Below are positions 1 to 31,369 of a stretch of 64,000 nucleotides of DNA, one piece after another. The DNA is from Gloeocapsopsis sp. IPPAS B-1203 (GTDB lineage Bacteria; Cyanobacteriota; Cyanobacteriia; Cyanobacteriales; Chroococcidiopsidaceae). Under the pieces are notes generated by a model. The model made no database searches, had not been told where the DNA came from, and was given only the letters and a program-made list of their open reading frames with translations. The stretch lies in NCBI RefSeq assembly GCF_002749975.1, contig NZ_PEIG01000001.1:496001-560000 (forward strand), given 5' to 3'. The position numbers and the translations under genes were made by a program. The first letter of the stretch is position 1; every line of letters starts with the position of its first letter.

Positions 1-643
1 AGGTAGAATTAAAGATAGTTATAGGTCAATAGTTAATGGCTAGGGTAGCAATAATTAATAATTAATCATTAACTAGCATAATGCGCGCTGTAAACTACCA
101 TCACAGCGAGTGCATTTTTCTCTACTGTATCTACTACTTGCTTGAATAGTACCAATCTTTTCAGGAATGAATGCAAATAATATTAAACTTCTGTTGGGTT
201 TTAGAAGCAGATATGGCAGATGTGTAGACTAGAGATTATAGACCAAAGACCTCAAGCAATTGCTACACTTTTTTGCGATCGCAGCAGAGCTACTATAAAA
301 GCACCAATTACAACTATCTCATTCACCGCAGACTAATTCTTACATAGAAAAATACTGAATTTATCTGTATCGACAACCTTATGGTTTCAGAGGAAGATAC
401 TGAAGTGAACATGAATGTGAGTTTAACTATTCAGTAAGCGTTGACTAACAATTACAGTACTTTTATTCGATAGATGCTCTCTTAGTTAAACCTAGAAATA
501 AAGCTTCGCTGAATTATTTGCAATACATTTACTAACACATCTTAATCGCATTATTGACTGCGGCTAGTCATGACTTTGTTTGTAAGATCTAAGGTTTTAT
601 TTGTATTTACTCTTTTAAATTACATTGATTAACCAGTGTTGAT
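1..643. other. Intergenic region upstream of the EPS island
   Basis: No convincing open reading frame is present. The stretch is AT-rich, has one HIP1 octamer near 276, and contains copy 1 of the 21-bp EPS-island element at 355-375. It probably holds the promoter and a long leader for the gene starting at 644. Confidence 0.5.
355..375 (-). promoter_or_regulatory. EPS-island 21-bp element, copy 1
   Basis: The minus strand matches the seven-copy consensus GTCGATACaGAaAAgTTCAG. It lies 268 bp upstream of the phosphodiesterase-like gene at 644. Relative to that gene it has the same orientation as the other six copies have to theirs. Similarity to copies 3 and 5 continues some 15 bp further towards the gene, ending in a TTTCAG-like block. 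Function is inferred, not known. Confidence 0.6.
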
Positions 644-2305
644 ATGAAAACTCCTGTTATTGCAATTGGCTTGGATGCAGCTGAACCAGCGTTAATTGAA
701 CAATGGATTTCTCAAGGATACTTAAAAAATCTACGTAGTTTGAAGGAGCAAGGTGCCTATAATCGATTACACAATTTCAATTATTACAGAGCAGAAACGC
801 CTTGGACAACTTTTTTGACAGGGTGTTCGCCCCAGAAGACTGGGTATTGGGCACCTATTAAACTTCGTCAAGGAACTTATGAGATAGACGAAATTGGTGC
901 TTACGATTTTGCTGAGTACCCACCTTTTTATACATTAGGAGATGAGTATAAGGTAGGAATATTTGACCTGCCCCATTCTAGACCCTCCAATCAAGTAAAC
1001 GGCGTACAGGTTTTTGCTTGGGGAGCGCATGCTCCTTTAACATCTAGTGAATCTCAACCATCACAACTACTACAGCAACTGATTGATAAGTATGGAGAAC
1101 ATCCAGCATTGCATAAAGATCATGCAAGTTGTCTGGATGTAGCTGCGTTGAAACGCCTGCAAAAAAATCTTGAGGTTGGGATCTCGCGTCGTTCTGCTAT
1201 TTGTCAAGAGCTATTGCAAAGAGAAGATTGGGACTTATTTTTAACAATCTTTGGTGAAACTCATTCAGCAGGGCACTATTTTTGGCATCTTAGTCAATCA
1301 GATCATCCTTTATATGCGCTATTGAATCGCCCTTCTGGAGATCCTTTACTAGAAGTTTTCCAAGCTATAGACCAAGCCATTGGTGAAATCTTAACTAAAG
1401 CACCAGAAAATGCTCGCATCTTGATTTTTGCCGATCATGGCATGGGTGCCAATGTTATGGATTTACCCAGTATGGTGTTTTTACCAGAGTTGCTCTATCG
1501 ATTGAGTTTCCCAGCACGTGTAGGAATAGCTGCAGGTCAATTGGGAACAACGTTAAAACATCCTTTCACTGGAGTACGTATTCAGCGGGGACCGTTGGGT
1601 ATGCTTTGGAGCTTAAAACATGACTCTAATCCATTGAAAAGAGCGTTGCGCCGCAACACTCCGACTAAATTATTCAATTACCTTGAGCCGCTTTTTGGTA
1701 ATTCTCAACAGTCCGATTTAATTTCTCCCTTCCAATTACAAGCGCAATCAGATCCTTTATACTACCAACCTGCAGTTTGGTATAAACCATTTTGGTCTCA
1801 AATGAAAGCATTTGCGTTGCCAAGTTTTTCAGAAGGTTATATTCGCATCAATTTACAAGGAAGAGAACCTGAAGGAATTGTTGCACCATCAGAGTATGAA
1901 GCCCTTTGCGATCAATTAAGCCAAGAACTTTATGCATTAAGAAATAGTCGAACTGGTACGCCCATAGTCAAAAATATTATTCGCACGCGGCAATCAGCAA
2001 TTGATGTTGATCCTAAGCTACCGGATGCTGACTTAGTAGTTATTTGGCAAGAAGATCATGCTACAGATGTTGTGGATAGTCCTACGCTTGGACGTATTGG
2101 TCCAGTACCCTATTTTCGGACAGGTAGTCATCGTTCGCAAGGTTTCTTAATTGCCAAAGGACCTGGAATTGCTTCTGGTTCTACATTACCCCTGGGACAT
2201 GCGCTAGATCTTGCACCAACAATTTTGAAGCTTATGGATGCTCCAATTCCTGAGTATTGCGAGGGCAAGGCATTACTAGATTTATCTTCAGTCCTTGTTG
2301 GCTAA
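644..2305 (+). CDS. Alkaline-phosphatase-superfamily phosphodiesterase (type I phosphodiesterase/nucleotide pyrophosphatase-like)
   Basis: This 553-aa soluble protein has the metal-binding layout of the alkaline phosphatase superfamily. An N-terminal GLDAAEP (Asp11) is followed by ETPWTTFLTG near residue 51, where a Thr would be the nucleophile. ETHSAGHYFW, FADHGMG near 265 and a C-terminal TGSHR complete the set. Family members hydrolyse phosphodiester, pyrophosphate or phosphonate bonds, usually with two zinc ions. No signal peptide is visible, so it should act in the cytoplasm. It opens the EPS island 47 bp ahead of the chain-length gene and may trim a nucleotide-sugar or lipid-linked intermediate. 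The substrate is unknown. Confidence 0.75.
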   Translation: MKTPVIAIGLDAAEPALIEQWISQGYLKNLRSLKEQGAYNRLHNFNYYRAETPWTTFLTGCSPQKTGYWAPIKLRQGTYEIDEIGAYDFAEYPPFYTLGDEYKVGIFDLPHSRPSNQVNGVQVFAWGAHAPLTSSESQPSQLLQQLIDKYGEHPALHKDHASCLDVAALKRLQKNLEVGISRRSAICQELLQREDWDLFLTIFGETHSAGHYFWHLSQSDHPLYALLNRPSGDPLLEVFQAIDQAIGEILTKAPENARILIFADHGMGANVMDLPSMVFLPELLYRLSFPARVGIAAGQLGTTLKHPFTGVRIQRGPLGMLWSLKHDSNPLKRALRRNTPTKLFNYLEPLFGNSQQSDLISPFQLQAQSDPLYYQPAVWYKPFWSQMKAFALPSFSEGYIRINLQGREPEGIVAPSEYEALCDQLSQELYALRNSRTGTPIVKNIIRTRQSAIDVDPKLPDADLVVIWQEDHATDVVDSPTLGRIGPVPYFRTGSHRSQGFLIAKGPGIASGSTLPLGHALDLAPTILKLMDAPIPEYCEGKALLDLSSVLVG

Positions 2306-3836: not shown

Positions 3837-3871
3837 AAAAAACATAGTACATCGTTCTGCTCTAATATCTC

Positions 3872-6393: not shown

Positions 6394-7440
6394 CTATTGA
6401 CTAAAAGCAAGGCAAAATCGACGCCAAACATAGTTGAAAATATTACTTATCCGGCTTTTGTTAGCAATCAAGGAACGCAATCCAGCAAAAGGTAGAGTTA
6501 TCCAAGAACCAATGATTAGAACAGGTGGAACTGAGATGGGTTCTTGTTCATATCCAACTTTGTTCAATAAACCACCGCAGATATACTGGAAGGTGGCAAT
6601 CTCTGTGGGCTCAAGTTTCTCTCGCCATCTATACGCTGGCTCTTTGGAAAAACCAACTCTTGAAGAGCTTGGCTTATCAGAGTAAGAGCTATTGACTAAA
6701 TTAATTTCAAGCATTGAGGGTTCATAGTCTAAACCTAACCATGATGTTAGGGTACTAAGCGTTGACTCTGGAGCAGTTATGAGGTCTTCAAACCGCTGGA
6801 TATAAACACGCTCTGTACCAAATTGCTCGCGAGCTTGAAGCGCTGCATTGAAAGCTGCTTTCCACATCAGACTAATGATTGTTGGATTGTAAGAGTTGGT
6901 AATTCGACTTTTTTGAGAAGAAGCAGCAACATTCCTCCAGTCACGATATGAAGCAATAACTCCTCCTGGATGGCGAACCATACAAATAACTTTTGCACTG
7001 GGATAGCGAGTTAAAATTTCCGAAAGTTTAAAAATATGCCTGGGTGTCTTTTCACCCCACTGAGTCTTATTATCACGCTGAGCAGATAGCTGGCAAAACG
7101 CTTCAAAATACGAGTCAGTACCATAACCAAGCTTCTGTGCTAACATTCGTAACTCTATTCGATCCATCCATCCTTGTTCTGGAATACCTTCCCCATACCT
7201 TTTATGAGTAAGAGCAAGAAAGTAGTCTTCAGTAAGTTTTATCTCTGCTAAGCTTAGAGCCTGTTGCTCGCGACCAGCCATTTTTACACGTAAATCATCA
7301 AAATAGTGAGTTTCTCTGGGAGTAATATGTACGCCTGAGTGTTTGTTTAGAATTTGCTGGATTAAGGTTGTCCCAGAACGTGACGCACCAACTATAAAAA
7401 TACTTTTTTTACTAGCAACATTCGCTTTATTTGTTGTCAT
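6394..7440 (-). CDS. PAPS-dependent sulfotransferase, paralogue A
   Basis: The 348-aa protein has the P-loop-like 5'-phosphosulfate site GASRSGTTL at about residues 18-26. The 3'-phosphate-binding region is VRHPGGVIASYRDW. Such enzymes move sulfate from PAPS to a hydroxyl or amine; in an EPS cluster the acceptor is most likely a sugar. A C-terminal hydrophobic stretch (IIGSWITLPFAGLRSL) suggests membrane association. It is clearly paralogous to the 348-aa sulfotransferase at 15552-16598, which lies in the opposite orientation. It is transcribed alone, convergent with the preceding GT2. Confidence 0.82.
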   Translation of the reverse strand: MTTNKANVASKKSIFIVGASRSGTTLIQQILNKHSGVHITPRETHYFDDLRVKMAGREQQALSLAEIKLTEDYFLALTHKRYGEGIPEQGWMDRIELRMLAQKLGYGTDSYFEAFCQLSAQRDNKTQWGEKTPRHIFKLSEILTRYPSAKVICMVRHPGGVIASYRDWRNVAASSQKSRITNSYNPTIISLMWKAAFNAALQAREQFGTERVYIQRFEDLITAPESTLSTLTSWLGLDYEPSMLEINLVNSSYSDKPSSSRVGFSKEPAYRWREKLEPTEIATFQYICGGLLNKVGYEQEPISVPPVLIIGSWITLPFAGLRSLIANKSRISNIFNYVWRRFCLAFSQ

Positions 7441-7604: not shown

Positions 7605-8663
7605 CTAATTTAGACTTTTAATCTTACTAGCTAGAAGAATGGATGTAACTGGTTCTTCCCATTCATTTTCCGTAGGATTATATATTGCCCAAGGATGTCC
7701 AGCTTTACCAAAACTATAGTAACACCAAGAAAACCCTTTAGCATTTACTTCTGAAAGAACTGCTTTGATCCATTTCAACCGTAAGTATTGAGGTGCAAAA
7801 TTATTAACTCCAAACTCTCCTACATAGATTGGCTTATTGTGTTTCTTAGACCATTGATATACTTGCTGAAAAGCAACAGCTAACTCTTTATATTCTTTTT
7901 CTGTTCCCCAAAGTAATCCTTTTTTTCTGCCGCTAATACCCTGATGTGTAAAGTTTAATGGTTTATAATAATGAATTTGAGCAATAATATGCCTATCAAA
8001 AGCTGGAAGTTTTAAATTTTTAACAAGTTGCCACCAATTGTTGTAGCCAGCACTACCAATAATAATGTTTCGGTTAGGATTAGTTTTCCGTATTAGAGGA
8101 ACAACATCAGCAATCCATTGGTTCCATATGGTACTATTTAAATTACCGCAAGGCTCATTCAAAATATCAAAAATAAGATTAGCAGAATAATTTTTATAAT
8201 GAGCAGCAATCTGTGCCCAAAAAGAGAGAAAGTAAGCCTTATAGTTGCCTGGCTCATCTATAAACTCTTTATGATTTTTCATAGTGAGAACTACGACTAG
8301 TTTTTGAGAAAGGCAATCATTTATAGCACGATCGAGAGAATCAAAAAAGTCACTCTCTAGCTTAGTTCCCTGAGCATTTCTCATTGGGTACATCCATAAA
8401 CGTACTGAATTAAACCCTGCTTCTTTCACGAGAAAAGGTAACTTTGGGTTCCAAGCTACCCACCAACTAGGATCTTTAGAAGTAATCTGAGATTTTAGAT
8501 TGATGCCTTTACCAATACGCTCATTCATTACCCAAGGATCGACACCATTTTGTTTGTATATTGCTTTAGCATTTATCTGAACAAAACATGAGAATAAAAT
8601 AGTGAAAGTTAGGATAAAGACATAGATTATTCTAACTTTTTGGTTAAAAATAGATATTTTCAT
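7605..8663 (-). CDS. Glycoside hydrolase family 5 (endoglucanase/mannanase-like), exported
   Basis: The 352-aa protein begins with a Lys/Arg-containing segment and a hydrophobic core at about residues 11-30, a signal peptide or anchor. The GH5 catalytic pair is visible: the acid/base Glu170 in FDILNEPCG and the nucleophile Glu283 in VGEFGV. GNNW and HYYKP add the usual active-site aromatics. GH5 members cleave beta-1,4-linked glucans, mannans or related chains with retention. A glycanase inside an EPS cluster usually trims or releases the polymer during export. Upstream, 8664-9031 carries copy 2 of the 21-bp element, so this gene probably has its own promoter. Confidence 0.8.
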   Translation of the reverse strand: MKISIFNQKVRIIYVFILTFTILFSCFVQINAKAIYKQNGVDPWVMNERIGKGINLKSQITSKDPSWWVAWNPKLPFLVKEAGFNSVRLWMYPMRNAQGTKLESDFFDSLDRAINDCLSQKLVVVLTMKNHKEFIDEPGNYKAYFLSFWAQIAAHYKNYSANLIFDILNEPCGNLNSTIWNQWIADVVPLIRKTNPNRNIIIGSAGYNNWWQLVKNLKLPAFDRHIIAQIHYYKPLNFTHQGISGRKKGLLWGTEKEYKELAVAFQQVYQWSKKHNKPIYVGEFGVNNFAPQYLRLKWIKAVLSEVNAKGFSWCYYSFGKAGHPWAIYNPTENEWEEPVTSILLASKIKSLN

Positions 8664-9031
8664 CTTCTCTATATTAAAAATTTGTCAATTATTGCTGAAT
8701 TTAATTTTAAATTTTCCTAGTGAAGCCTGAAATAATTTACGTAGAGTGATAGAAGTAGTCTAGTTAAATTCAGTGATTAGATAATGAGGATGTTTACTAT
8801 GATTTGAGAATTTTTCTCAGATTTTTATCACAATAAAACCATATTTGACTAAAATTCTAAAAGAGTCGATACCGAAAAGTTCAGGTATAAATTATACTTT
8901 CTCAAAAGTTTTGATAGTGTGAAATCTAAGGTTTAGCAAGGATACTTTTACTCGAATTAGAGGTAAAAATCTAGAAAATAATTATTTCTGCCAAGTCATT
9001 ACTTCTTTTTATAAAGTTTACAAGATTGCTC
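8664..9031. other. Intergenic region with element copy 2
   Basis: AT-rich, with no plausible gene. It holds copy 2 of the 21-bp element and otherwise only the presumed promoter and leader of the GH5 gene. Confidence 0.5.
8864..8884 (+). promoter_or_regulatory. EPS-island 21-bp element, copy 2
   Basis: This copy differs from the consensus GTCGATACaGAaAAgTTCAG only in the central C and is followed by GTATAAAT, much as copy 7 is followed by GTATTTAG. It lies 200 bp upstream of the GH5 start, on the strand opposite to that gene. Confidence 0.65.
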
Positions 9032-11010: not shown

Positions 11011-12036
11011 TTAGAGAGATCTAGATAGCTCCTGAAGCATATGACGTTTTTGGATAGCTGCTGTCCTTTCTAAAGCAAGCTTTTCCATATGCCAGTAAAC
11101 AGATTGTGGTAAAAGCAATAGCGCGTGTGCAGCCACCCAAGTCAACAATATACGGCGTGGCTCCTGTAGTAGAATTCGCCAGTATGTGAACAGAGTACGA
11201 TAAATAAACTGCGCAGCCATCGTACCTGCTTTAAGACGTACTGCGGTGCGAGCTAAGTACTGTAACTGATAAGCTTTAGCGGGCTTTTCCCACTGCGCGA
11301 TGAACTCAGGTGCATAATCACGCGTTTTGTCTAGCACTGTCTCCCACGACTCTAGCTGTTTGTACAAGTTAGCAGAAAGCCCTCCTGAATTAACACGATA
11401 TAGCGTCAGGACATCTGGAATCCCCTCAATTTGCCAAGTAGTCTGCAGTGCAATTCGTAGCCAGCATTCTACATCTTCTGAGCGATGCAATTGAGGATCA
11501 AAATAGCAATCTTCAGTTGTGCCATTGCGATCGCACTCAAACTTGATTGCTTCAAGTACCGCACGCCGTACCACTGGTGCTGAACCATTGCCAACTGGGT
11601 TGCACAAAACTATAGAATTTGGATTGATGTCTCTCAGCACAGGCATTTGATAGCTATTTAAAGAGTGACCAGCTTCATCAATAAAAGCAGAGCGGCTAAA
11701 ACTGACACCGACATCAGGTGAATTGTGCAAGTGTTCGAGGTGCTTCTCTAGCTTTTGTGGCAACCACAGGTCGTCACCATCAATAAAAGCCATGTATTCA
11801 CCTTGCGCATGACGTATTCCCAGGTTGCGCGCCGCCGCCGGTCCTTGATTGTGCTGACGTAAGATTTTGATGCGCGGGTCACAAATGTTTTGACACACTT
11901 CAACACTCGCATCTGGAGAGCCATCATCAACTATCAGCAACTCAAAATCGCTATATGTCTGCTGCAGTACAGAGCGCACTGTTGCTGCAATGTACTTCTC
12001 TACCTTGTATACAGGAATTATTACCGTTACTTTCAT
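11011..12036 (-). CDS. Glycosyltransferase family 2, tandem copy 1
   Basis: The 341-aa GT-A enzyme is read from an ATG at 12036, matching its neighbour copy; the frame opens nine codons earlier. It has DDGS at 37-40 and DGDDLW at 86-91. It is a duplicate of the gene at 12113-13144. Residues 1-125 and about 158-257 are almost identical between the two, while 126-157 and the C-terminal 80 residues differ strongly. In 350 bp of the 5' part I count three base differences. The variable blocks probably alter acceptor recognition. Both copies lie upstream of hepA and downstream of the priming transferase. Confidence 0.85.
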   Translation of the reverse strand: MKVTVIIPVYKVEKYIAATVRSVLQQTYSDFELLIVDDGSPDASVEVCQNICDPRIKILRQHNQGPAAARNLGIRHAQGEYMAFIDGDDLWLPQKLEKHLEHLHNSPDVGVSFSRSAFIDEAGHSLNSYQMPVLRDINPNSIVLCNPVGNGSAPVVRRAVLEAIKFECDRNGTTEDCYFDPQLHRSEDVECWLRIALQTTWQIEGIPDVLTLYRVNSGGLSANLYKQLESWETVLDKTRDYAPEFIAQWEKPAKAYQLQYLARTAVRLKAGTMAAQFIYRTLFTYWRILLQEPRRILLTWVAAHALLLLPQSVYWHMEKLALERTAAIQKRHMLQELSRSL

Positions 12037-13257: not shown

Positions 13258-13953
13258 TTAAAAAGCATCATGTTTTTTCTTAAAAAATACTACTAAAGTA
13301 GTAAAAATAATTTTTATATCATAGGCTATACTCCAATTCTTTTGATACCGCAGATCTAGTTCAACTATTTCTTCAAAATTAGAGATTTTAGAGCGACCAT
13401 TAATTTGCCATTCTCCAGTCATACCAGGTTTAACATTTAAGCGTTGCCAAAAAAACTGAGAATATTGAGCAACCTCATCAGGGGTTGGAGGTCTTGTTCC
13501 AACGAGACTCATTTCTCCTTTCAGAACATTCCAAAACTGTGGAAGCTCATCAAGGCTTGTCTTTCTTAAAAAATGCCCTATCCGCGTGATTCGAGGATCA
13601 TTACTATTTTTAAAAATTGGACCTACGGCTTGATTTTCTACTAATTCTTTCATTTTTTCAGCATTAGCTACCATAGAGCGAAACTTCAAAATACAAAATT
13701 TTCTTCCTAGTAAACCACAACGAGTTTGCCTAAATAGTATTGAGCCTGGGCTATCTAACTTAATAGCAATTGCAATAGGAATAAACAAAAATCCTGTAAT
13801 ACATAACCCAATTAGGGAGCCTATAATATCTATGATGCGCTTAGGTGCAGAGTAAACAGAAATATGAACATCTGTAGTCTTTTTAAATTTTGCCTGCTTG
13901 TTAATTGAAGTAATAACTTTTTTTTTGTTAATACTCGTTAATCTATTCATCAC
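13258..13953 (-). CDS. Undecaprenyl-phosphate sugar-1-phosphate transferase (initiating transferase)
   Basis: The 231-aa protein is of the short WcaJ/PglC-like type. One hydrophobic anchor lies around residues 42-65, then [20 protein letters not shown] and [10 protein letters not shown] in the catalytic domain. These enzymes place the first sugar-1-phosphate on undecaprenyl phosphate at the inner membrane and so start the EPS repeat unit. The usual GPRP is GTRP here. The start overlaps the end of the upstream WecG-like gene by 11 bp, which suggests translational coupling, so the first and second steps of the repeat unit are made together. Confidence 0.85.
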
Positions 13954-14710
13954 TTGTTTGTAGGCTATACGAATTTAGTTTTTGATTTAGAATTAATAAA
14001 AAAAATGGTAATCCTTCTACTAAGTATCGCTTCCATAATCTTTTAGGCTCAGACAACAGTCGATGTAGCCATTCAAAACCCATATTACACATCCATTTTG
14101 GTGCTCGCTTTAAGTTGCCTGCTTCAAAGTCAATAGTTGCACCTAGTGCGAGGAAGATTTTAATATTGGGTAAGGAATTCTTGTATCTACACAACCATTT
14201 TTCTTGCTTAGGAGCACCAACCCCAATTGCCAGCACAGTTGCTTCTGACTGATTAATTACTTCGATAATTTTTTTGCACTCTTCGTTATTATGCTCGAAT
14301 CCAAAAGAGGGAGAATAGTAACCTACAATGATATTCCTACCGATTTTTTGATTGATTCTCTGTTGTGCTTTTTTAGCAATTCCTGGTTTTGCACCTAATA
14401 AAAATATTTTTATGTCTTCGTTATTCTTATGATAATTATAAAAAGCAGGGAAAAAGTCAGAACCCGAGATTTTTTCTCTAATTGGTGTATTCAAAAATTT
14501 TGAAGCATACATCAATATTTGGCTATCACAAATTTTGTAGTCAGCCATCAAATAGCTTGTATAGAATTCTTTGTCTTTCTGCAGTTTTATTAAATGATCT
14601 ACATTAGGAGTAAATACAACACCTGATTTAAGTTGTATTAGCAATTCTCTTTTTGTAAGGTTATCTATTTCAATATTCAAGATATTGATTTTTTCTTTTG
14701 CTGCTACCAT
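13943..14710 (-). CDS. WecG/TagA/CpsF family glycosyltransferase
   Basis: The 255-aa protein carries the family pattern: TPNVDHLIKLQKD near residue 34, DSQILMYASKFL, FFLLGAKPGIA-like text and GVGAPKQEKWL. Members transfer N-acetylmannosamine-uronate or a similar sugar onto an undecaprenyl-linked first sugar. The gene overlaps the priming transferase by 11 bp. Copy 3 of the 21-bp element lies 187 bp upstream, so this is probably the first gene of the operon running down to hepA. Confidence 0.85.
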   Translation of the reverse strand: MVAAKEKINILNIEIDNLTKRELLIQLKSGVVFTPNVDHLIKLQKDKEFYTSYLMADYKICDSQILMYASKFLNTPIREKISGSDFFPAFYNYHKNNEDIKIFLLGAKPGIAKKAQQRINQKIGRNIIVGYYSPSFGFEHNNEECKKIIEVINQSEATVLAIGVGAPKQEKWLCRYKNSLPNIKIFLALGATIDFEAGNLKRAPKWMCNMGFEWLHRLLSEPKRLWKRYLVEGLPFFLLILNQKLNSYSLQTSDE

Positions 14711-15551
14711 AAAATTTCAACATCTATTATTTTTTTTAAAGCACAATAAAAACATGAATCTAAGCCATTACATATTTCTTGGTTGATATGTAACTTGATT
14801 TGTACATCTTTGCTAAGCAGCAGATCTATTTGATCCTTATCAAACTTTACGCAAGAACATTTCTGCTTGTCTGGATAATCTTCTGAAAACTAAAGCTTGT
14901 CGATACTGATAAGTTCTGCAGTCTATTAGCTTATTTTTTCAATAAAAATTCAGGGATAACATTATCCTACTTCTGTTTAAATATGATTCTGAGACTAATA
15001 CAGCAAGTACGTAGTTATATGTGTTATTAAACTCACAAACATAACTTTTCTACTTTCTTGTACATCAAGTTCACAAAGAATATTACAGTATAAAGATGTA
15101 GCTGTATAAGAGCCAAACATCACATGCAGCTCTAGCTGAGTAATAAATTTCTACTTGATTGTATATATAAAATAAGCTGAAAAAAACATACACTCAGCTT
15201 AGATATATCTGAACTTATATACATTGAATATTTTTTGAGTGACATGGATTATATAAGTATCAGTAACATATAAAAATTAAAAGTACATGTCCCTGAGAAA
15301 CAGAGAATACCAAGAGATAAAAAAATATCATTAATATTTTTTAAAGAGCAAATTCATCCTCTATTTTTATATTTAAGTTGCGTTATTTAAGTAGTATCAT
15401 TTTATTTTTCTATTAAATTTAGTAGTTTATTCTCAAATAATTGCAGTGCTATTATTAATATCTTTTTTACTAATAGTCTCCAGTTGATCTTGAGTTTTAG
15501 TAGCTAGTTTTATGAGTAGCAAAAAGTATTTATTTTTCGTGATGTGAAATT
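14711..15551. other. Long AT-rich divergent intergenic region
   Basis: About 840 bp separate the divergent WecG-like and sulfotransferase genes. I see no reading frame with coding character. Copy 3 of the 21-bp element is at 14898-14918. The rest is very AT-rich and could hold divergent promoters and leaders. Confidence 0.45.
14898..14918 (+). promoter_or_regulatory. EPS-island 21-bp element, copy 3
   Basis: It matches the consensus GTCGATACaGAaAAgTTCAG at all but three positions and lies 187 bp upstream of the WecG-like gene, on the opposite strand to it. Extended similarity to copy 1 runs on towards the gene (AGTTTTCAGAAGAT against GGTTTCAGAGGAAGAT). Confidence 0.65.
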
Positions 15552-16598
15552 ATGGAAGCAGACAAAGTTAGTATTTCTAATAAGAATATGGTTTTCATTG
15601 TTGGTACACCCCGTTCGGGTACAACATTGATGAGTCAGATTTTAAATAAGCATTCAGATGTGTGGATCGCTAAAGAAACGCATTACTTTGAAGATTTACG
15701 CATGAAGATGGCTGGTCGCGAACAACAAATCTTGAACTCAGAAGAAGTAAAACTTACTGAAGACTATTTTTTAGCTCTCACCCACAAATCTTATGGAGTC
15801 AAGTCCGATCCAGAGCAAGGCTGGATGAAGCGTATAGAGTTACGGACATTAGCTCAGCAAATTGGTCGCGGTACTGACTCATATTTTGAGGCTTTCTGCC
15901 AACTTTGCGCTCAAAGAATGAATAAAACTAGATTCGGTGAAAAAACACCTAGACATATTTTTCAACTATCAACAATTTTTTCTCTTTATCCTAATGCACA
16001 GGTAATTTGTATGGTTCGCCATCCAGGAGGTGTGTTAGCTTCATCTCGTGACTGGAAGAATGTTGCTACTGACTCTTCTCAAAAACGTAGACTTACAGAT
16101 TCCTATAACCTTGCACTTAATAGCTTGCATTGGAGGGCTGCTTTTAATGCAGCAATGGAAGCCCGCAAACAATTTGGTGAAAGCCGCATATTTATTCAAC
16201 GTTTTGAAGACTTAGTCACTGAACCAGAAGCAACGCTCCAAGCTTTAACAGCATGGCTATCGCTAGAATATCAACCTTCTATGTTGGATGTTGATTTAGT
16301 GAACAGTTCCTACTCGTCTGCTTGGAGACAGCCTGGTGTAGGATTATCTTGTGAACCTGCATATCGTTGGCGAGACAAACTTAGTCCTACAGAGATTGGA
16401 AGTTTACAAACCTTTTGTGGCAATCTATTAAGCAAGGCTGGATATGACTATGAACAAGTTTCTGCATCCTATGCTTTGGTTGTATGGTTTTGGATGATTT
16501 TGCCATTTGCAGGGATACGCTCTTTATCTGCTAACCGAAGTCGAATGAGTAATATTCCCAATTATGTTTGGCGTCGACTTCGTTTCACGTTGTCCTAG
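15552..16598 (+). CDS. PAPS-dependent sulfotransferase, paralogue B
   Basis: This 348-aa protein has the 5'-phosphosulfate loop GTPRSGTTL at about 18-26 and the 3'-phosphate motif VRHPGGVLASSRDW. Its length matches paralogue A at 6394-7440 and the similarity runs from end to end, including KTPRHIF and the C-terminal NYVWRR. The two genes are in opposite orientations and bracket the block of GH5, hepA, GT2 pair and priming transferase. It likely sulfates a sugar of the EPS. The next gene, 121 bp on, is another sulfotransferase with a frameshift. Confidence 0.82.
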   Translation: MEADKVSISNKNMVFIVGTPRSGTTLMSQILNKHSDVWIAKETHYFEDLRMKMAGREQQILNSEEVKLTEDYFLALTHKSYGVKSDPEQGWMKRIELRTLAQQIGRGTDSYFEAFCQLCAQRMNKTRFGEKTPRHIFQLSTIFSLYPNAQVICMVRHPGGVLASSRDWKNVATDSSQKRRLTDSYNLALNSLHWRAAFNAAMEARKQFGESRIFIQRFEDLVTEPEATLQALTAWLSLEYQPSMLDVDLVNSSYSSAWRQPGVGLSCEPAYRWRDKLSPTEIGSLQTFCGNLLSKAGYDYEQVSASYALVVWFWMILPFAGIRSLSANRSRMSNIPNYVWRRLRFTLS

Positions 16599-20199: not shown

Positions 20200-21342
20200 T
20201 TATGCAAGTGCTTGTCTTAGCGCTTGCTGTATTCCTAACGAGCGTTGACGGTAGTTTTGAATTCCTGTCTCTACATCCTTACGAGCCATCAACGGGTTAG
20301 CCAAGATCTCATCAATACTAGAAAGTAACTGCTTGCGCTCAAAGTACTCTAAAGGAATGGAATGCTGCGCTTGACCAATTTCTTCCATAAATCCACGTAC
20401 TTTAGAATCGTATTCTGCAGCTATGACTGGTACACCTAAACCAGCCGCTAGGATTAGTGAGTGGAGGCGCATACCAATTACTAAGTCCAATTCACTAATT
20501 AGTTGATTGAGGGTATGGAGAGATTCAAAAGAGCGATGAACAACGAAGTGGTTTGAATAACGGCTGTAGCGCAATAGTTCTAAAGTAGCAACGTAGTCAT
20601 CATTGCTTGAGTGATAGCCGGATTTCAGCGCTTGAAATGGTAGAAAATGGACAGTAGCTTCATACTGTTCTACTAAAAGATCTGCGATCGCAGCCATCTC
20701 TTGCTGATATCTCAGATAAATACCTGCATCTGTATATCGTCCGCGTAAATTTAATGGTCGAATAGAAATACCTATCTGAATAGGTCGCTCAACTGGCTGA
20801 TTTGGTAATCTCGTTTCTGGTAAAAACTGCAACGCCAAATCACTGATGATATGAATCGATTTACGTACACCTAGTTTTTCTAGCTTAGATTTGGAATCTG
20901 CGTCGCGGACTGTCAAGAGATCAACTCGGTTGAGAACTTGAGGAATCATGTCTTGGGTTTCCTTTCTCCAAATTTCACCAACACTAATCCCCAACACAAG
21001 AGTGCGACGGCGAAGTCTGATGGCTTGCTGTAGGGGACGCAACCAACCTTTTGCAATAGATTGGTCAACGCCATCTCGCAGCAAATCGCCTCCTCCTAAT
21101 ATGAAAAACTGATTTTGAAGCAGTGCTATATTATGTTTAATTTTTAATTGACTATTTCTGTAATGAACTGCTCTAACAGAATGACGGGCTGTAGTATCTT
21201 GAGTATCTCTAGAAAAAACTGTAATCTGCAGATTATCTTGCAGCTCACGTAATAGCTTAAGCATACCTGCAAGCATTGCCTCGTCACCAAGGTTATAGCT
21301 ACCATAGTACCCACAGATTAAAATGCTTTTCTTTGTGTTCAA
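20200..21342 (-). CDS. csaB: Polysaccharide pyruvyl transferase, CsaB family
   Basis: The 380-aa protein begins after a strong Shine-Dalgarno AAGGAGG (21347-21353) at a TTG codon at 21342; an ATG at 21387 without such a site is possible. It reads KSILICGYYGSYNLGDEAML at the start, then ILGGGDLLRDG, LVLGISVGEIW, and a C-terminal IGMRLHSLILAAGLGVPV. CsaB enzymes add a pyruvate ketal to a sugar using phosphoenolpyruvate, giving a negatively charged acetal on a secondary polymer or EPS. Copy 4 of the 21-bp element is 169 bp upstream. The frameshifted sulfotransferase follows 70 bp downstream. Confidence 0.85.
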   Translation of the reverse strand: MNTKKSILICGYYGSYNLGDEAMLAGMLKLLRELQDNLQITVFSRDTQDTTARHSVRAVHYRNSQLKIKHNIALLQNQFFILGGGDLLRDGVDQSIAKGWLRPLQQAIRLRRRTLVLGISVGEIWRKETQDMIPQVLNRVDLLTVRDADSKSKLEKLGVRKSIHIISDLALQFLPETRLPNQPVERPIQIGISIRPLNLRGRYTDAGIYLRYQQEMAAIADLLVEQYEATVHFLPFQALKSGYHSSNDDYVATLELLRYSRYSNHFVVHRSFESLHTLNQLISELDLVIGMRLHSLILAAGLGVPVIAAEYDSKVRGFMEEIGQAQHSIPLEYFERKQLLSSIDEILANPLMARKDVETGIQNYRQRSLGIQQALRQALA

Positions 21343-21748
21343 GTTTCCTCCTTTTAAGTAATTCGATAGGAGAACAAAGACGGTCATTCAGTACAGATCA
21401 TCAACCTCACTTCAGTTTCATTAATGTAATTTAGATGAAAATGCTGTTTTCAAATTCTGATTCATACATTAGTAAACTTGTTATATGAATACTGCAGTCA
21501 AAACATGATATTTTCAATTCAGAAAAGCTCAGATATCTTCTGTCATTAATCAATGCTAAATAGAACAGCAGTTAACTATTGACTAGCATAAAACGTGTGA
21601 TAGATAACTACGTAAGTCCACTCATAATGTTATAAAATTCTATTGTAAAGCTAGATGTATATTTTTTGTAAACAGTTTTGAATTATTACTATACATAAAA
21701 ATTTTAATAATAAGAAATAAACTCAAAGAAGCTCAGCCGCTTATAACT
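21343..21748. other. Intergenic region with element copy 4
   Basis: It lies between the csaB start and the end of the next minus-strand gene. It contains csaB's ribosome binding site, the less likely alternative ATG at 21387 and copy 4 of the 21-bp element. The remainder is AT-rich with no visible gene. Confidence 0.45.
21512..21532 (+). promoter_or_regulatory. EPS-island 21-bp element, copy 4 (diverged)
   Basis: The right part, AGAAAAGCTCAG, agrees well with the consensus. The left part (TCAATTC in place of TCGATAC) has drifted. It lies 169 bp upstream of csaB on the opposite strand, the same arrangement as the other copies. It is the weakest of the seven. Confidence 0.4.
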
Positions 21749-23519: not shown

Positions 23520-24281
23520 TTATGCTCTAACAAAATTTTTAAATTTTTTAAACATATTTTTTTTACTCAAAAAAGAAGAGTTTTTTCTTAGTGTTTTTTC
23601 GTAGTTTAATTCTTTCACAATTTTTAGATAGTACGTTGGATGAATTACATCAAGTTGTGTTAAATCAGATTCAACTTTTTCTGCCTCTAATAAAGGATAA
23701 TTGCTCAATAATTCCTTTTTCACAAACAGAAGAATTCCTTGTGAATAACACCACATAACTCTTGGGTTTGACCATAATTTACTTCTAATAACATCAATGG
23801 CTACATACCCTCTGTTACTGAAATGTTTTGCCCAATAAGATGGCCACTGACAATTGATATGCATATTTCCAGGTACAAAAGGAACTGCTGCTGAGAATAG
23901 AATAACTGGAGCTAACTTAATTAAAGACTCAACAAACGTTTCAGCACTATCAGCTGATAAATGTTCAGCTGTTTCAACAGAAATAGCTAAATCAAACTCT
24001 TTTTTAAGACTAAATGTTTGGTTAAGATCGGCAGAAATAAAGTTTTCTTTCGGAATTTTTATTTTTTTTTGATCTACCCAATGTCCATCTACACCAGTAA
24101 CATTTTCAACACCTAATTCTTGAAATACCGATAGCCATACACCAATACCACAACCAAGATCTATTACTGATGTGGGCTGAACAAGCTTGATGACTTCTGG
24201 AATAATCTCTAACGCGCTTGGTCGCGTACTTTGTAAGTGATTATAACTTCCTTCAATATACTGATATGTTTTTAAAGTCAT
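23520..24281 (-). CDS. Class I SAM-dependent methyltransferase
   Basis: The 253-aa protein has VIDLGCGIGVWLSVFQ (SAM-binding glycine loop), NVTGVDGHWV with the ribose-binding acid, and DLAISVETAEHL (motif IV region). It is not an FkbM protein and has no extra domain. The acceptor is unknown, presumably a sugar or a sugar nucleotide. It has a good SD (AGGAAAG). Copy 5 of the 21-bp element lies 155 bp upstream, so it probably leads the transcript that continues through 22546 and 21749. Confidence 0.75.
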   Translation of the reverse strand: MTLKTYQYIEGSYNHLQSTRPSALEIIPEVIKLVQPTSVIDLGCGIGVWLSVFQELGVENVTGVDGHWVDQKKIKIPKENFISADLNQTFSLKKEFDLAISVETAEHLSADSAETFVESLIKLAPVILFSAAVPFVPGNMHINCQWPSYWAKHFSNRGYVAIDVIRSKLWSNPRVMWCYSQGILLFVKKELLSNYPLLEAEKVESDLTQLDVIHPTYYLKIVKELNYEKTLRKNSSFLSKKNMFKKFKNFVRA

Positions 24282-24436: not shown

Positions 24437-24457
24437 TGTCGATACAGAAAATTTCAG
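24437..24457 (+). promoter_or_regulatory. EPS-island 21-bp element, copy 5
   Basis: A very good match to GTCGATACaGAaAAgTTCAG, with T for G at one position. It lies 155 bp upstream of the methyltransferase start at 24281 and on the opposite strand to it. Similarity with copies 1 and 3 continues 15 bp towards the gene. Confidence 0.65.
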
Positions 24458-26471: not shown

Positions 26472-27110
26472 TTATCTATCGACTAGATCCAGATTTTTAA
26501 AAAGTACATTCCCTTTATAGTATTCAATATCTTTAAAAGCTGGAATCAAAGACTTTATTCTCTCAATATTTGGCTGACCTTGATATATTTCCTTATTGTA
26601 ATACTCAGTATAAAAGTATCTGGTGCGAGACAATGTTTTAAGCCCTCCTTTAATGAGTTCTTCTTCTGCACCTTGAACATCAGCCCAAATAAAATCAACT
26701 TCACCAATTTGATGCTCTTCAGCCCATGTATCTAGTTTGTAAGTCGGTACTTTAATATTTGTATCAAATGTACACCAAGGATATAGCTTCAAATGCTCTT
26801 TAGGTGCTTTGAGAGAAGATGATGCACTCCAATCATGAATCGAAGTATATTTTGGATGCTGACCACTACTCTGATAAAATTCTGCTTGCCCGTTAGTATC
26901 AGACATAGCTATTTCATATAGCTGACATCTGCTATCTTGTACCCGACTTTTGTGCAATGCTATAGCTCGAGGATCAGGTTCAAAACAATATAGTTGAACT
27001 TGCGAAAACTCCTTCAAAAATTCTAGGGAATCTCCGCCACCAGCAGCTCCTACTTCTAACACAACTGGGTTATCCTTTTGGAGTAGTTTTTTAATTTTTT
27101 GCTTGTTCAT
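26472..27110 (-). CDS. FkbM family methyltransferase
   Basis: The 212-aa protein has VLEVGAAGGGDSLEFL as the SAM loop, LYCFEPDPRAIALH, and DFIWADVQGAEEELIKGG, the FkbM-type acid motif. It is shorter than the FkbM protein at 22546 but complete. A strong AGGAGA SD precedes the ATG. It is the first gene of a minus-strand run continuing with the fucosyltransferase-like and sulfotransferase genes, and copy 6 of the 21-bp element is 269 bp upstream. Confidence 0.82.
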   Translation of the reverse strand: MNKQKIKKLLQKDNPVVLEVGAAGGGDSLEFLKEFSQVQLYCFEPDPRAIALHKSRVQDSRCQLYEIAMSDTNGQAEFYQSSGQHPKYTSIHDWSASSSLKAPKEHLKLYPWCTFDTNIKVPTYKLDTWAEEHQIGEVDFIWADVQGAEEELIKGGLKTLSRTRYFYTEYYNKEIYQGQPNIERIKSLIPAFKDIEYYKGNVLFKNLDLVDR

Positions 27111-28061
27111 ACATATCTCCTATTTCGTATTTTCAAATATAAACATAATTTTTTATACTCAAAGTTGATTAATTGTACTTGTAATGCTTGGACAATAATT
27201 CACAAGCAGCACTTTGATTAATAGTGCTTTGTATATATTTTTTGAATGCTATAGCAATGATTTTCAAAAGCTAATAGATTCTACTTTGAATTATGTTAAG
27301 CAAACTGATGTCCTGGTTGGAGTTAGTGTTACTTAGTATGAGTTCCATCTACTTAAAGCATCTAATAGAGTAGACCATATGTCGATACATAAAAGTGCAG
27401 AATAGTTCAGCTACTTGAGATAATAGAAGTAACCAAGGCTTTTTGCTATTTTCATAAGTTTTCTAGTCATTTTTTTGATTTATTTTTTTTTAAATGCGAT
27501 CGCGTATTCTGAAAGTGCATACCATGCACATTTACAATACATATAATTTGTTTTAAGATATATATGTATTAATATTACAACAATAAATTTTTAAAAATCT
27601 ATTGTTGTTTTGTTTTGCTATTAAATAAACAGAGTAAAATTTCTAGCTATTTTGAGTTTTATTTATGGTGATTGGTAGACGCTACTGAATAGTAGTATGA
27701 TTTACCCTCTATCTCTCCGAAAGTCATTTTTACTTATCTTCTCACCCAGGATTGGGGAAACCGAGAGGAGGACAGGAAAAACCAAACTTTTCAAAATTCC
27801 CCAATTTTAGGAAACAACTGTGTTGCGAAGATTTCCCTCTTTATAGCAAGCAGCATGGATTTAGGGGATTTATAAAAGTGATGTTAGTTAACTATTGATG
27901 TATTAATTATCTATCGATTGCTTTTAACTTATTCTTACTCAGTTAATAAACATCTTTAATAAAGATGCTCAAATCTATCTATACTATAAACGATAGATAA
28001 AGTTTTTTTTGAAGAGTATGTAGCTCGTAAATCTATTTAGATTAAAATTCTTGAGTTGAAA
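27111..28061. other. Long intergenic region with element copy 6
   Basis: About 950 bp without a credible gene. It holds copy 6 of the 21-bp element at 27380-27400 and a HIP1 octamer near 27498. A less AT-rich patch at about 27725-27850 (GGGGAAACCGAGAGGAGGAC) could be decayed sequence from another element. The tract before it is extremely AT-rich. Confidence 0.45.
27380..27400 (+). promoter_or_regulatory. EPS-island 21-bp element, copy 6
   Basis: GTCGATACATAAAAGTGCAG differs from the consensus at two positions (ATA for AGA, GTG for GTT). It lies 269 bp upstream of the FkbM gene at 27110, on the opposite strand. A TAGTTCAG stretch follows shortly after. Confidence 0.6.
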
Positions 28062-29345
28062 CTAAATTTGAGGTAGGACTTGATGTTTCCATAAGGGAAT
28101 TATAAGCCCTTCTGCACGAGCGATCGCAAAGCCAAGACAGTTAGCAAAATATTCGAGAAGCTTCACTTCGTCTCTAGTAAACTTACGCGTAACATAGCTA
28201 CCGACATGAAACACTCCAAGTACTTCACCTTCGGCTTGCAAAGGAATACCAAGCATTGAATGTAATCCCTTATTGCGGAGAATAGGACTCACAACCTCAA
28301 TTGTGGACAGATCTTCTACAATCATCAACTGGCACTCAGCAGCAATACGACCAGCAAAGCCTTGCCTTAGAGGGATTCTAATTCCTGCTGTAATCTCATC
28401 CTCTAACCCAATAGAAGCATGCACTGCTAACTGCTCCTTATCTTGAGTTTGCAGTAAAACTGTAGCAGTGTCCATATTTATAATTTGACGCATTCCATTG
28501 AGTAGCTGATATAGTGGGGTTTCAAGCATTGAATTTCTCAAGTCAGTATTCTGAACTAACTGTTGGGCTTTATGCTGAGTCTTCTCTGTTTCGACTATAT
28601 TGGTATCCGAACAAATAGTTAGGTTATCGTCATTATCTGTATTTTCCTTTGATATCTGAGATGTTGTTATCTGTTCTTGTGTTCTCCGATTTTTAATCAC
28701 CCTAGCAGGTACACCAACAGCAACAGAGTAAGGAGGAATGTTTTTAGTAACAACAGCACCTGCACCAATTACACTACCTTGACCAACAGTAACCCCATCT
28801 AATACTTTAACTCCACTACCCAGCCAACAATTGTCTTCAATGATAATCCCTTCGTAACTGCTTCCCTGCCCTCTAATTGTACGGTTGGGATCGCCAAAGT
28901 TATGATTATTAGCATAAATACCTAAATGAGAAGCAATTCGGCAATCTCTACCAATTTTGATATAGTTACCCGATAGACAGGTGTAAGGACCAATATAAGT
29001 ATTATTACCAATCTCTATATCACCACTCTTATGAGTTTTGATAATAACTCCTAAATCAATCTTGACAAAATCTCTTAGCCGAATTCTACTATTTTGACCT
29101 GTGTTTCGTAAGCAAACCCCTCGATCAATTCTTACCCCATTACCAATTTCAATTCTACTCGTATGAATCAGTTCAACTCCAGATTTAATCTGTACTGAAT
29201 TCCCAAATTGCGCAAAAATACTACTGTAAATTCGTCTTCTTAATGCTCTACCTACCGATAGGGGTACCCATCCCAAAAAAGTAGTTATTACAGCTTCCTG
29301 CCAACGAAAATGTTGTGAGATAAAGGGGAATTTTACAGCATTCAT
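28062..29345 (-). CDS. Hexapeptide-repeat acyltransferase fused to a C-terminal GAF domain
   Basis: The 427-aa protein has two parts. Residues about 50-215 are a left-handed beta-helix of hexapeptide repeats (IEIGNG, IGNNTYIG, IIEDNCWLGSGVKV, VIGAGAVV). ANNHNFGDP supplies the usual catalytic His, as in WcaF/maltose-acetyltransferase-type enzymes that acetylate sugars. After a polar linker with several Thr/Asp residues, residues about 275-415 form a GAF domain (LYQLLNGMRQI, IPLRQGFAGRIAAE, MLGIPLQAEGEVLGVFHVG). The fusion suggests an O-acetyltransferase under small-molecule or redox control. There is no DPCF or Cys-His pair in this GAF. Confidence 0.8.
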   Translation of the reverse strand: MNAVKFPFISQHFRWQEAVITTFLGWVPLSVGRALRRRIYSSIFAQFGNSVQIKSGVELIHTSRIEIGNGVRIDRGVCLRNTGQNSRIRLRDFVKIDLGVIIKTHKSGDIEIGNNTYIGPYTCLSGNYIKIGRDCRIASHLGIYANNHNFGDPNRTIRGQGSSYEGIIIEDNCWLGSGVKVLDGVTVGQGSVIGAGAVVTKNIPPYSVAVGVPARVIKNRRTQEQITTSQISKENTDNDDNLTICSDTNIVETEKTQHKAQQLVQNTDLRNSMLETPLYQLLNGMRQIINMDTATVLLQTQDKEQLAVHASIGLEDEITAGIRIPLRQGFAGRIAAECQLMIVEDLSTIEVVSPILRNKGLHSMLGIPLQAEGEVLGVFHVGSYVTRKFTRDEVKLLEYFANCLGFAIARAEGLIIPLWKHQVLPQI

Positions 29346-29538: not shown

Positions 29539-30903
29539 TTATTTATTACTTGCTAACAGGTTTTGATAAATAGCTACAGTATCTGCTGCCTCTAAAGACA
29601 TAGTTCGGATCGGCTGGATTCCTTTACGGAGTTTAGACAAGAAATCGATATCTATAGCTAGTAAACTAAGTGCTTCTGCCCAAGCTGGAATATTAGTAGG
29701 AGGTAGTAATAAACCGTCTACATTATGTTTGATTAGTTCATTAACTCCCCCTACATCTGAGCCTAATACAGGCAACCCTAGAGCGTGAGCTTCTAAAACA
29801 GCCATTGGTCTGACATCAAACCATTGTGCCGGTAAAGCTAAAACATCATATTTGGCTAACACTGTAGGTAATTCATCTCTTGTCAAAGTTTGAGCAACAT
29901 GAATTCGAGGTTCATTTTCAATACTCTTGAGGATTTCTTGTCTATATTTTTCTTCATCAACTGCACTACCATGAATTGTTAATTCAATTGGTACACTAGT
30001 GGGTAATGATTTGATTGCTTCTACAATAATATGAATTCCCTTGTTACGATTCCAGCGCCCTAAAAAGACAACTTTTAAAGTCTTATTACTTTCTCGTTCT
30101 TTATTTTGGCTTGATGCTAGGAAAAAATCAGGTACACCTGTTTTACAAATAAGTAACTTTTCTTGAGGAACTCCATTAAGTAATAATGTTTCATATAGTC
30201 GCTCACTCAGCGTAACAATGCGATCTGCAAACTTTGCCATTTCTAACAAGCCATTTCTGCGAGCAACTACGTAAGCTGGTAGAGAAAGTGGAGTTAGCAA
30301 TCCTGTTACATTTGTATTAACTTGAACTGGTACTTTGTCTAATTGATGTATCAGCCCACTTACCAGATTACTGATAAATAAAGGTGTATTAGCCAAGTTT
30401 CTAATTGCTACATCTGAAAGAGATTTTGGCACACCACAACAACGGCTACATCTTACTTCATCGATTTTCCCATCACAAACTTCTTGACCATTTAACATCA
30501 AAGTTTCACGCTGGCAAACAGGAGTCGGTAAGCGAATTGATACAATTGTTGCCATACCAAGTTCTTTCGCAAGGCGTAGATGCGATAAACCACATTTTGG
30601 AGTCCATTGATGTTGATGGTAAATATCAGCTTTCTGCTCTTTTAACCAATGCGCAAAAAACTCAAATTTACCATGCGGTGATTCTCCATGATTTGGTTCT
30701 GCCTTTGGCGTAGGAAACACAGGATAGCGATACACTTCTATTCCGTTATGTATGTAAGTATTTTCGCATTTACTATCTTGAGCTGCTGCTATTTTACTTT
30801 CAACTCCATACGTTTGTAGCAACGGTAAAAGTTCGCTAAGGCGAATTTGAATTCCGCCACATTTTTCTGGTAAGTAACGGGCAACAGCTTGAATAGTTTT
30901 CAT
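29539..30903 (-). CDS. Glycosyltransferase family 4 with Cys-rich insertion
   Basis: The 454-aa GT-B protein has an N-terminal YLPEKCGGIQI and HQHQWTPKCGL. The C-terminal domain has VVFLGRWNRNKGIHII and MAVLEAHALGLPVLGSDVGG, the GT4 donor site. Between residues 130 and 156 there is an insertion with five Cys (130, 143, 152, 155, 156), which may bind zinc or an iron-sulfur cluster. A GAGGAAA SD precedes the ATG. It is likely the first gene of the transcript continuing into the acyltransferase-GAF gene 193 bp away. Copy 7 of the 21-bp element lies 207 bp upstream. Confidence 0.8.
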   Translation of the reverse strand: MKTIQAVARYLPEKCGGIQIRLSELLPLLQTYGVESKIAAAQDSKCENTYIHNGIEVYRYPVFPTPKAEPNHGESPHGKFEFFAHWLKEQKADIYHQHQWTPKCGLSHLRLAKELGMATIVSIRLPTPVCQRETLMLNGQEVCDGKIDEVRCSRCCGVPKSLSDVAIRNLANTPLFISNLVSGLIHQLDKVPVQVNTNVTGLLTPLSLPAYVVARRNGLLEMAKFADRIVTLSERLYETLLLNGVPQEKLLICKTGVPDFFLASSQNKERESNKTLKVVFLGRWNRNKGIHIIVEAIKSLPTSVPIELTIHGSAVDEEKYRQEILKSIENEPRIHVAQTLTRDELPTVLAKYDVLALPAQWFDVRPMAVLEAHALGLPVLGSDVGGVNELIKHNVDGLLLPPTNIPAWAEALSLLAIDIDFLSKLRKGIQPIRTMSLEAADTVAIYQNLLASNK

Positions 30904-31369
30904 AAATTATTTTTCCTCTTAAAATATTGAGGTATGGCAAATAAAAACTGAGTTAGTCTTTTGAAAATATTATTTTTTCAGATTTTCCTCAATAAGAAAT
31001 TGACCAAACAAATTACTAAAACTTACAGTTACTACTAGACAATGAAAAATATCTATTAAATATATAAAACTAATTAGATTCTACATAAACTTATAAAAAG
31101 CCTTATTAATTGTCGATACAGTTAAGTTCAGGTATTTAGAAAATTTACTTTTATAAAGTTTGAGAAAGAATATTAAAAATAAATAGGATAATTTAATAGT
31201 TTTACAGAGCTTTTCTGTAGCATTAATTAAGTTAATCTAGTCAATGTGGATGCGTTAATTATATTCGACTCATACAGTTGGCTGTAAATAACAAGTTATA
31301 TATGGTGGCTGCGATCGCCTCTCAACTCAATAAAAAGCGATCGCCCACTACCCAAACAACGAAGTCCTC
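30904..31369. other. Intergenic region closing the EPS island, with element copy 7
   Basis: No gene is visible. It has copy 7 of the 21-bp element and two HIP1 sites near 31310 and 31338. The latter lie just downstream of the pentapeptide gene and could pair as an inverted repeat. The border between AT-rich EPS DNA and more GC-balanced DNA lies here. Confidence 0.45.
31111..31131 (+). promoter_or_regulatory. EPS-island 21-bp element, copy 7
   Basis: GTCGATACAGTTAAGTTCAG differs from the consensus GTCGATACaGAaAAgTTCAG at two positions and is followed by GTATTTAG, close to what follows copy 2. It lies 207 bp upstream of the GT4 start at 30903, on the opposite strand. Confidence 0.65.

Follow-up and report, generated by a model that had tools for sequence, protein, structure and literature searches.

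An exopolysaccharide cluster with a recurrent 21-bp element

The window analysed here is a 64-kb stretch (G000:C1:496001-560000) of the 5.9-Mb genome of the slime-forming cyanobacterium Gloeocapsopsis sp. IPPAS B-1203 (G000), whose left 31 kb hold an exopolysaccharide (EPS) cluster. The cluster encodes glycosyltransferases, a weak match to Wzy, a pyruvyl transferase, FkbM and other methyltransferases, and several sulfotransferases, and such genes make a sulfated (capsule) polysaccharide its probable product. A preliminary description of the window had reported a 21-bp element in seven copies, each in the gap before a block of EPS genes. It reads CTGAACTTTTCTGTATCGACA along the gene strand and comprises a pair of 10-bp direct repeats, with as many as four in relatives. 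We describe its architecture and distribution and argue that it is likely to be the operator of a regulator encoded beside the cluster, a signal transduction ATPase with numerous domains (STAND).

To score the element we used a weight matrix of 43 training sites, all from genomes other than G000 and its relative of the same genus, G001. This matrix, derived from other genomes, ranked exactly the seven reported copies first, at 18.5-33.6 bits, against a maximum of 17.1 bits in 100 simulated 64-kb sequences, and it gave no site over this null in the 31.2-64 kb half of the window, where none had been reported. Six copies lie within three mismatches of GTCGATACNGANAANTTCAG (expected 0.16; six were reached in 0 of 100 shuffles). 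Copy 4 is degenerate (CTGAGCTTTTCTGAATTGAAA on the gene strand), lacks the claimed GTCGATAC, is missed by the pattern and, at 18.5 bits, barely exceeds the null maximum. When the spacer and the -10-like box described below were scored too, a site emerged at 15209-15229 (18.3 bits vs a null maximum of 12.9), the 21-bp core of which scores 10.2 bits alone, under the null maximum of 17.1; copy 6 reached 16.7 bits in that scan.

Putative operator 1 (CTGAATTTATCTGTATCGACA; 355..375, plus strand; 31.5 bits, 46.1 with the -10) precedes a phosphodiesterase/Wzy-like/GT2 block that begins with a type I phosphodiesterase gene (644..2305, plus; PF01663). Operator 2 (CTGAACTTTTCGGTATCGACT; 8864..8884, minus; 28.5 bits) stands before genes for a GH5 protein (7605..8663, minus; PF00150) and a sulfotransferase (6394-7440), and operator 3 (CAGAACTTATCAGTATCGACA; 14898..14918, minus; 23.9 bits) before those for a WecG/TagA/CpsF glycosyltransferase (13943..14710, minus; PF03808), a sugar transferase, two GT2 proteins and an ABC transporter. 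The additional site, operator 8 (CTGAACTTATATACATTGAAT; 15209..15229, plus), lies 322 bp before two sulfotransferase genes (15552-17316), the first of them at 15552..16598 (plus; PF13469). Degenerate operator 4 (21512..21532, minus) precedes a block led by a csaB-like polysaccharide pyruvyl transferase gene (20200..21387, minus; PF04230), and operator 5 (CTGAAATTTTCTGTATCGACA; 24437..24457, minus; 30.6 bits) a methyltransferase/FkbM block whose first gene encodes a methyltransferase (23520..24281, minus; PF13489). Operator 6 (CTGCACTTTTATGTATCGACA; 27380..27400, minus; 27.8 bits) has a third decamer, CTGAACTATT, immediately upstream and precedes an FkbM/weakly NodZ-like/sulfotransferase block beginning with an FkbM methyltransferase gene (26472..27110, minus; PF05050). 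Last, operator 7 (CTGAACTTAACTGTATCGACA; 31111..31131, minus; 33.6 bits) precedes a block of a GT4 gene (29539..30903, minus; PF00534) and a hexapeptide-GAF gene.

Copies 1-3 and 5-7 lie 155-269 bp upstream of their genes, within the range of 155-270 bp given earlier, but for copy 4 the distance is 124 bp if the listed open reading frame (ORF) starts at its ATG, and longer if it starts at a possible TTG. The orientation of the element to the gene is fixed; its reported placement on the strand opposite the gene is merely a matter of the strand as written, and it is the gene strand that carries the -10-like box. The likeness noted past the element in copies 1, 3 and 5 reflects a partly conserved spacer. 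Across the eight sites, G000 and G001 agree at 165 of 168 element bases, with flanks 85-96% identical, and at all three differences G001 is nearer the consensus. Operator 8 is the same at 21/21 bases in a flank of 85% identity, and the G001 orthologue of operator 4 is one base nearer the consensus.

Architecture of the element

A comparison across the family yielded 52 non-redundant sites, whose consensus on the gene strand is CTGAACTTTTCTGTATCGACAa. It is followed by a T-rich spacer and, at bases 43-44 from the element start, by a conserved A-T within a weak -10-like box about 20 bp past the element. For this logo we removed near-copies (less than 30% different over 121 bp) and seven loci with likely coding or chance matches (L108, L112, L114, L116-L119), took sites with three mismatches from four loci only, and included neither copy 4 nor site 8 of the window; 25 of the 52 sites come from one genome, G009. 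One of the removed loci, L119, was later found to adjoin a helix-turn-helix (HTH) gene. The information at bases 43 and 44 is 0.74 and 0.82, compared with a maximum of 0.40 in 500 shuffles of the tail; with the G009 sites set aside, leaving 27, no shuffle comes up to base 44 (0.91 vs 0.74), but base 43, at 0.60, no longer stands above them all.

The repeat core CTGWA is present at offset 0 in 42 of the 52 sites and at +10 in 37, and further copies occur upstream of the 21 bp at -11, -10 and -21 (10, 4 and 5 sites, respectively). Genomes of other families have longer rows, with four successive decamers in G257 and three in G058. Counted back from the -10-like box, the element would occupy about -53 to -33, centred near -43, over the -35 position. 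Such a layout would resemble an activator operator bound by a head-to-tail oligomer rather than an RNA leader signal.

Distribution across genomes

Within two mismatches of CTGNANTTNNCTGTATCGACA there are 11 places in G000, and none for the reversed pattern. The tighter CTGAACTTNNCTGTATCGACA has seven at the same threshold, six in the window and one on C4. A scan that allowed three mismatches gave 39 places vs 12 for the reversed control. Copies outside the cluster are thus few in G000, with none of the profuse random scatter that would speak against a regulon. Two of them also stand before polysaccharide genes, one at C4:234353 (one mismatch) before a polysaccharide-type locus outside the window, the other at C1:488869 (three mismatches) before a GT4 gene 7 kb to the left of it, so that of the proposed cluster-specific regulon the regulon stands and the restriction to the cluster does not. 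Close to a contig end, at G000:C23:68145-68165 (L011, L036), lies a further site, CTGAATTTCTCTGTATTGTCA, whose spacer and -10 are both good.

Relatives keep the motif. Among the 19 family genomes, ten carry 3-25 sites within two mismatches of CTGAACTTNNCTGTATCGACA and nine carry none. Pfam was run on the genes of the window only; the genes that follow family sites, named by eye from their translations, are mostly EPS genes, among them glycosyltransferase, phosphodiesterase, MetK-like, KdsA-like and export-permease-like ones. At 34 of the 52 sites the distance from the element to the nearest long reading frame downstream is 150-320 bp. In wider draws, 53 of 291 genomes from the order have at least one place within two mismatches, many of them one or two only, and three of 292 genomes from the phylum have a match within one mismatch. 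Dense sets are found in the ten family genomes and in scattered others: G230 (15), G137 (6), G257 (6) and G174 (5). A contig scan with CTGAAYTTNNCTGTATCGACA returned eight stretches. Three, from other phyla, we took for chance matches; the remaining five are from cyanobacteria, with three in Gloeocapsopsis crepidinum LEGE 06123, one in Coleofasciculus and one in Pleurocapsales. In family f2, CTGAACTCCTCTGTAGCGACA is common to eleven genomes of one genus and CTGAACTTATCCCTATCGACA to seven of another; we provisionally treat both sets as unrelated to the element. In G058, three such sites with an extra upstream decamer each precede a short gene that is Nif11-like by eye (L213, 8288-10036), and the 17 kb fetched there contain no HTH-STAND match.

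A candidate STAND regulator gene accompanies the element

A gene for a 1197-aa STAND protein lies on the minus strand at G000:C1:490509-494102, 2 kb to the left of the window and 2.3 kb from operator 1. Members of its clade have an N-terminal HTH faintly resembling sigma region 4 and an NB-ARC domain, often with WD40 repeats. A search of PDB sequences with the HTH profile found nothing convincing, the best match (E=0.0069) being a designed-looking repeat protein. WD40 is among the Pfam matches listed for the G000 protein (the best 25 of 65 families), and its central region aligns at 54% with a G010 protein that matches NB-ARC. The G010 protein has no WD40 match in Pfam, suggesting that the sensor part varies. 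The three parts by which STAND regulators are recognised, a DNA-binding domain, an NB-ARC/NACHT NTPase and a repeat sensor, are thus present.

Matches to the HTH of at least 140 bits are found in exactly the ten motif-positive family genomes, while the best in the other nine reaches 88.5 bits. This co-occurrence (10/10 vs 0/9) has a one-sided Fisher probability of 1.1e-5 by genome and 0.03 by genus; the HTH matches per family genome number from 1 to 11. In all ten motif-positive genomes the STAND gene lies 2.0-6.6 kb from a site. In G230, which belongs to another family, a 58% identical HTH is encoded between sites on a contig with five sites (at most three mismatches). Given that relatives keep the element mostly before EPS genes and that its presence follows one regulator clade, there is good support for the earlier proposal that the element binds a regulator and defines a regulon. 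On these sequence comparisons we put at about 0.72 the probability that the element is the operator of the STAND regulator encoded beside the EPS cluster, probably an activator like MalT or AfsR.

Paralogous regulators and variant sites

Linkage could mean mere shared residence in a cluster, and we therefore sought sites belonging to related HTH proteins. When the HTH served as query, nine of the 50 loci fetched had a core-like site within 1.4 kb, in every case upstream of the gene and divergent from it, and a reversed-pattern control gave 0/50. Two of the nine (L235 and L236) were already known through the motif; seven were new. A paralogous HTH clade with the helix SxSYxTRD, fused to a part that by eye is AAA-type ATPase-like, pairs with a variant site, CAGAGATTTTCTGTAACGACA. 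A place within one mismatch of CNGANATTTNCTGTAACGACA exists in 11/11 genomes with this clade and in 1/8 without it; the helix was read in ten of the eleven and, for G009, inferred from score and place. The variant site is within 300 bp of the clade gene in eight of the eleven genomes and about 10 kb away in G010-G012. Other HTH-site pairs were found in G066, G041, G257, G132 and G271 and on a plasmid of G012. Before other HTH subclades we found nothing firm apart from a weak site in G162.

Helix and site appear to covary. Base 16 is A in 7/7 pairs with V, L, I or A before S-Y in the helix and in 0/7 of the others, which have T (Fisher 2.9e-4, 14 pairs). This rule was made post hoc, and its 14 pairs include a weak match, in G162, and two pairs that are 2-6 kb apart. 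A second rule would link KHD with T at base 3, but SVSYVKRD with CATAAC departs from it. We nonetheless advance, as a tentative proposal to which we give somewhat less than even odds, that a large cyanobacterial family of immune-like STAND proteins with region-4-like HTHs may act as local transcription switches for cell-surface products such as EPS and exported proteins, RTX-type ones included, each reading its own tandem-decamer variant at sites that a helix-to-base code would predict. Yet another HTH paralogue has a variant of its own, CAGAGATTTGCTGTAAAGACA, at a distance of about 1 kb in G000 and G001 alike (G000:C7:254003 and G001:C75:28895).

Alternative readers and points against the STAND protein

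Co-occurrence alone cannot separate the STAND protein from its neighbour, a 130-aa protein resembling ribbon-helix-helix (RHH) regulators, because the two share the same 10/10, 0/9 pattern. The RHH-like gene (G000:C1:494521-494910; L032:16522-16914) is transcribed away from the STAND gene and is present once in every one of the ten motif-positive family genomes and never in the other nine, which detracts from the case for the STAND protein; copies of about 61% identity are also present in G230. RHH proteins such as MetJ and Arc bind short tandem repeats, and the protein has weak RHH matches, none over the cut-off (RHH_5, E=0.084, in G000; RHH_5, 7.7e-05, and RHH_1, 0.0069, in G010). It could read the element directly, the STAND protein acting on it or being merely a neighbour. 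No match to it was found, however, at the fetched loci where paralogous HTH genes adjoin motif variants, and so it does not explain the site architecture that they share. We therefore favour the HTH as direct reader and regard reading by the RHH-like protein, the main rival, as unlikely. A different STAND activator, the NACHT-type XssQ, governs the same biology, a sulfated EPS with a repeated box near the promoter (PMC8205485), and an orthologue lies at G000:C3:290471. Its clade is found in 7/10 motif-positive genomes and 0/9 others, but it is missing from G013, G014 and G015, all motif-positive; the XssQ box AAGTTXXAC, present at the xss promoters of pSYSM, is absent from the 52-site consensus on either strand, and searches with the XssQ HTH and the STAND HTH shared no matches. 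The element thus fails as an XssQ box on both sequence and clade distribution, and we consider it highly improbable that XssQ reads it. The idea that the neighbouring STAND protein is itself XssQ-like was also set aside, the match being weak and over the NACHT region only.

The fixed orientation and the -10-like box at a fixed distance would also suit the -35 or extended region of a promoter for an alternative sigma factor (group 3 or extracytoplasmic function) with no dedicated activator. SigJ has a role in EPS. In Anabaena it also controls tolerance to desiccation, and Gloeocapsopsis has an orthologue of it (PMC6513891). Yet 21 conserved bp with 10-bp repeats are unlike a -35 hexamer, the distribution follows the STAND HTH clade, and the SigJ J-Box, GGGAATACT, is absent: its sequence differs, and the 52-site consensus has no GGG trio before the -10. 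A promoter of this kind is accordingly very unlikely. The preliminary description had also compared the element to ops/JUMPstart, and the long distance to the start codon would allow a cis-acting RNA or DNA signal in a leader that acts on elongation. The -10-like box lies downstream of the element, however, which disfavours this reading, as does the direct-repeat DNA architecture; we give it the faintest of chances.

Several observations weigh against the STAND protein as reader of the element. Its HTH scores 15.6 bits against Sigma70_r4_2 (E=0.013), below the cut-off of 25.7. The ten motif-positive genomes fall in four genera and hence represent few independent events; three genomes (G006, G008 and G018) are only 65-74% complete, and in G002 the HTH-matched stretch contains two stop codons. 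Many G009 sites are distant from both of that genome's main-clade HTH genes. Of 20 loci fetched for the motif outside the family, nine have the HTH and 11, some of them on short contigs, do not, among them the G058 and G298 sites. In the converse sample, 41 of the 50 HTH loci have no recognisable site within 1.4 kb; 12 of these belong to the main clade, whose sites lie further off, and most others have different helices, but five (L237-239, L246 and L251) lack a site despite an S-x-S-Y helix. The -10 is itself poor, the best TATAAT-like hexamer beginning 20 bp past the element in 6.8 of 52 sites (weighted count). The +10 repeat is not independent, as it belongs to the pattern used for choosing sites, so that independent evidence of repetition must come from the upstream copies; those at -11 are almost all from G009, and among the 27 sites from elsewhere no upstream offset reached two.

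A possible mechanism and its relation to known systems

The sites with their fixed orientation and spacing, their conservation, the co-occurrence and linkage with the HTH clade and the covariation of clade and site variant come directly from computation; that the protein binds the element itself, activates instead of repressing, assembles at the expense of ATP and responds to a signal we infer by analogy. We envisage a promoter family in which tandem 10-bp repeats (CTGAACTTTT one to three times, then CTGTATCGACA) stand about 20 bp upstream of a weak -10. The N-terminal, sigma-region-4-like HTH of the STAND protein would bind the repeats, and sensing of a signal by the WD40 part would lead the NB-ARC ATPase to assemble into an oligomer. 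HTHs aligned over -53 to -33 could then substitute for a -35 element in recruiting RNA polymerase, switching on the blocks of the sulfated-EPS cluster together, possibly with the RHH-like protein as a partner. The mechanism is likely a new operator-regulator pair within a known kind, the STAND transcription regulators.

Among these the closest in biology is XssQ, a 783-aa NACHT protein of the synechan cluster of Synechocystis PCC 6803, which shares with the present case a STAND-type regulator and a repeated short box at several promoters of a sulfated EPS cluster (PMC8205485). Its HTH differs, and its clade is not in all motif-positive genomes. Our working model was MalT of Escherichia coli, a STAND activator that multimerises with its inducer and binds several boxes cooperatively, recruiting RNA polymerase (PMC4381067, PMC10427625). 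The DNA-binding domain of MalT is C-terminal and its sensor TPR-like, whereas here the domain is N-terminal and accompanied by WD40. The MalT box is unrelated to the element in sequence. AfsR of Streptomyces, a NOD-containing activator, binds in the afs box direct repeats one helical turn apart that overlap -35, and engages sigma region 4 (PMC10936776); it does so with a SARP domain and 11-bp repeats centred at -29.5, unlike the 10-bp repeats with a probable centre near -43 here. Lone region-4-like HTHs fused to STAND modules (NB-ARC/WD40/AAA_35) are described in cyanobacteria as K.3, SigL and SigR (PMC11119718), and these Sigma70_r4_2 proteins with accessory domains are probably the published class for such proteins, although the HTH here is under the Pfam Sigma70_r4_2 cut-off and the parts of that report at hand give no target or operator (PMC11119718). 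The SigJ J-Box also marks cyanobacterial promoters and serves a large regulon, that of hormogonium genes, but it is an extended -10 with an invariant GGG, differing in sequence and position (PMC6495340).

A text search of the open-access literature for TGTATCGACA gave no cyanobacterial promoter paper, judged by title, among the matches listed, and the open-access listings of one library gave no target for the HTH-STAND class. Little is known of how cyanobacterial EPS clusters are regulated; in the literature examined, XssQ alone among cluster regulators has been shown by gel shift to bind its box. The genus Gloeocapsopsis has a desert-dwelling member (PMC6513891). If our reading is correct, the operator of a probably sulfated EPS would be defined, with a candidate for its regulator and the regulon as a whole in view, the HTH-STAND class would gain targets, and apoptosome-like ATPases would be tied to control of the extracellular matrix. 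The possible helix-to-base code across a large orphan family is to us the most interesting part.

Other features of the window

Adjoining the EPS cluster, and without the element, is a chemotaxis-like operon (34881-51141) with CheW, a CheA-type kinase, response regulators and three large similar ORFs. Within the cluster, a single sulfotransferase family is matched in consecutive portions by two neighbouring ORFs at 19240-20129, both scoring just under the cut-off, and the gene therefore looks split by a frameshift or an assembly error. The gene at 28062-29345 fuses a GAF domain to a hexapeptide transferase, an uncommon pairing. A tandem GT2 pair at 11011-13144, whose identity is 97% in one 300-bp stretch but 75% in a second, is a recent duplication or conversion.

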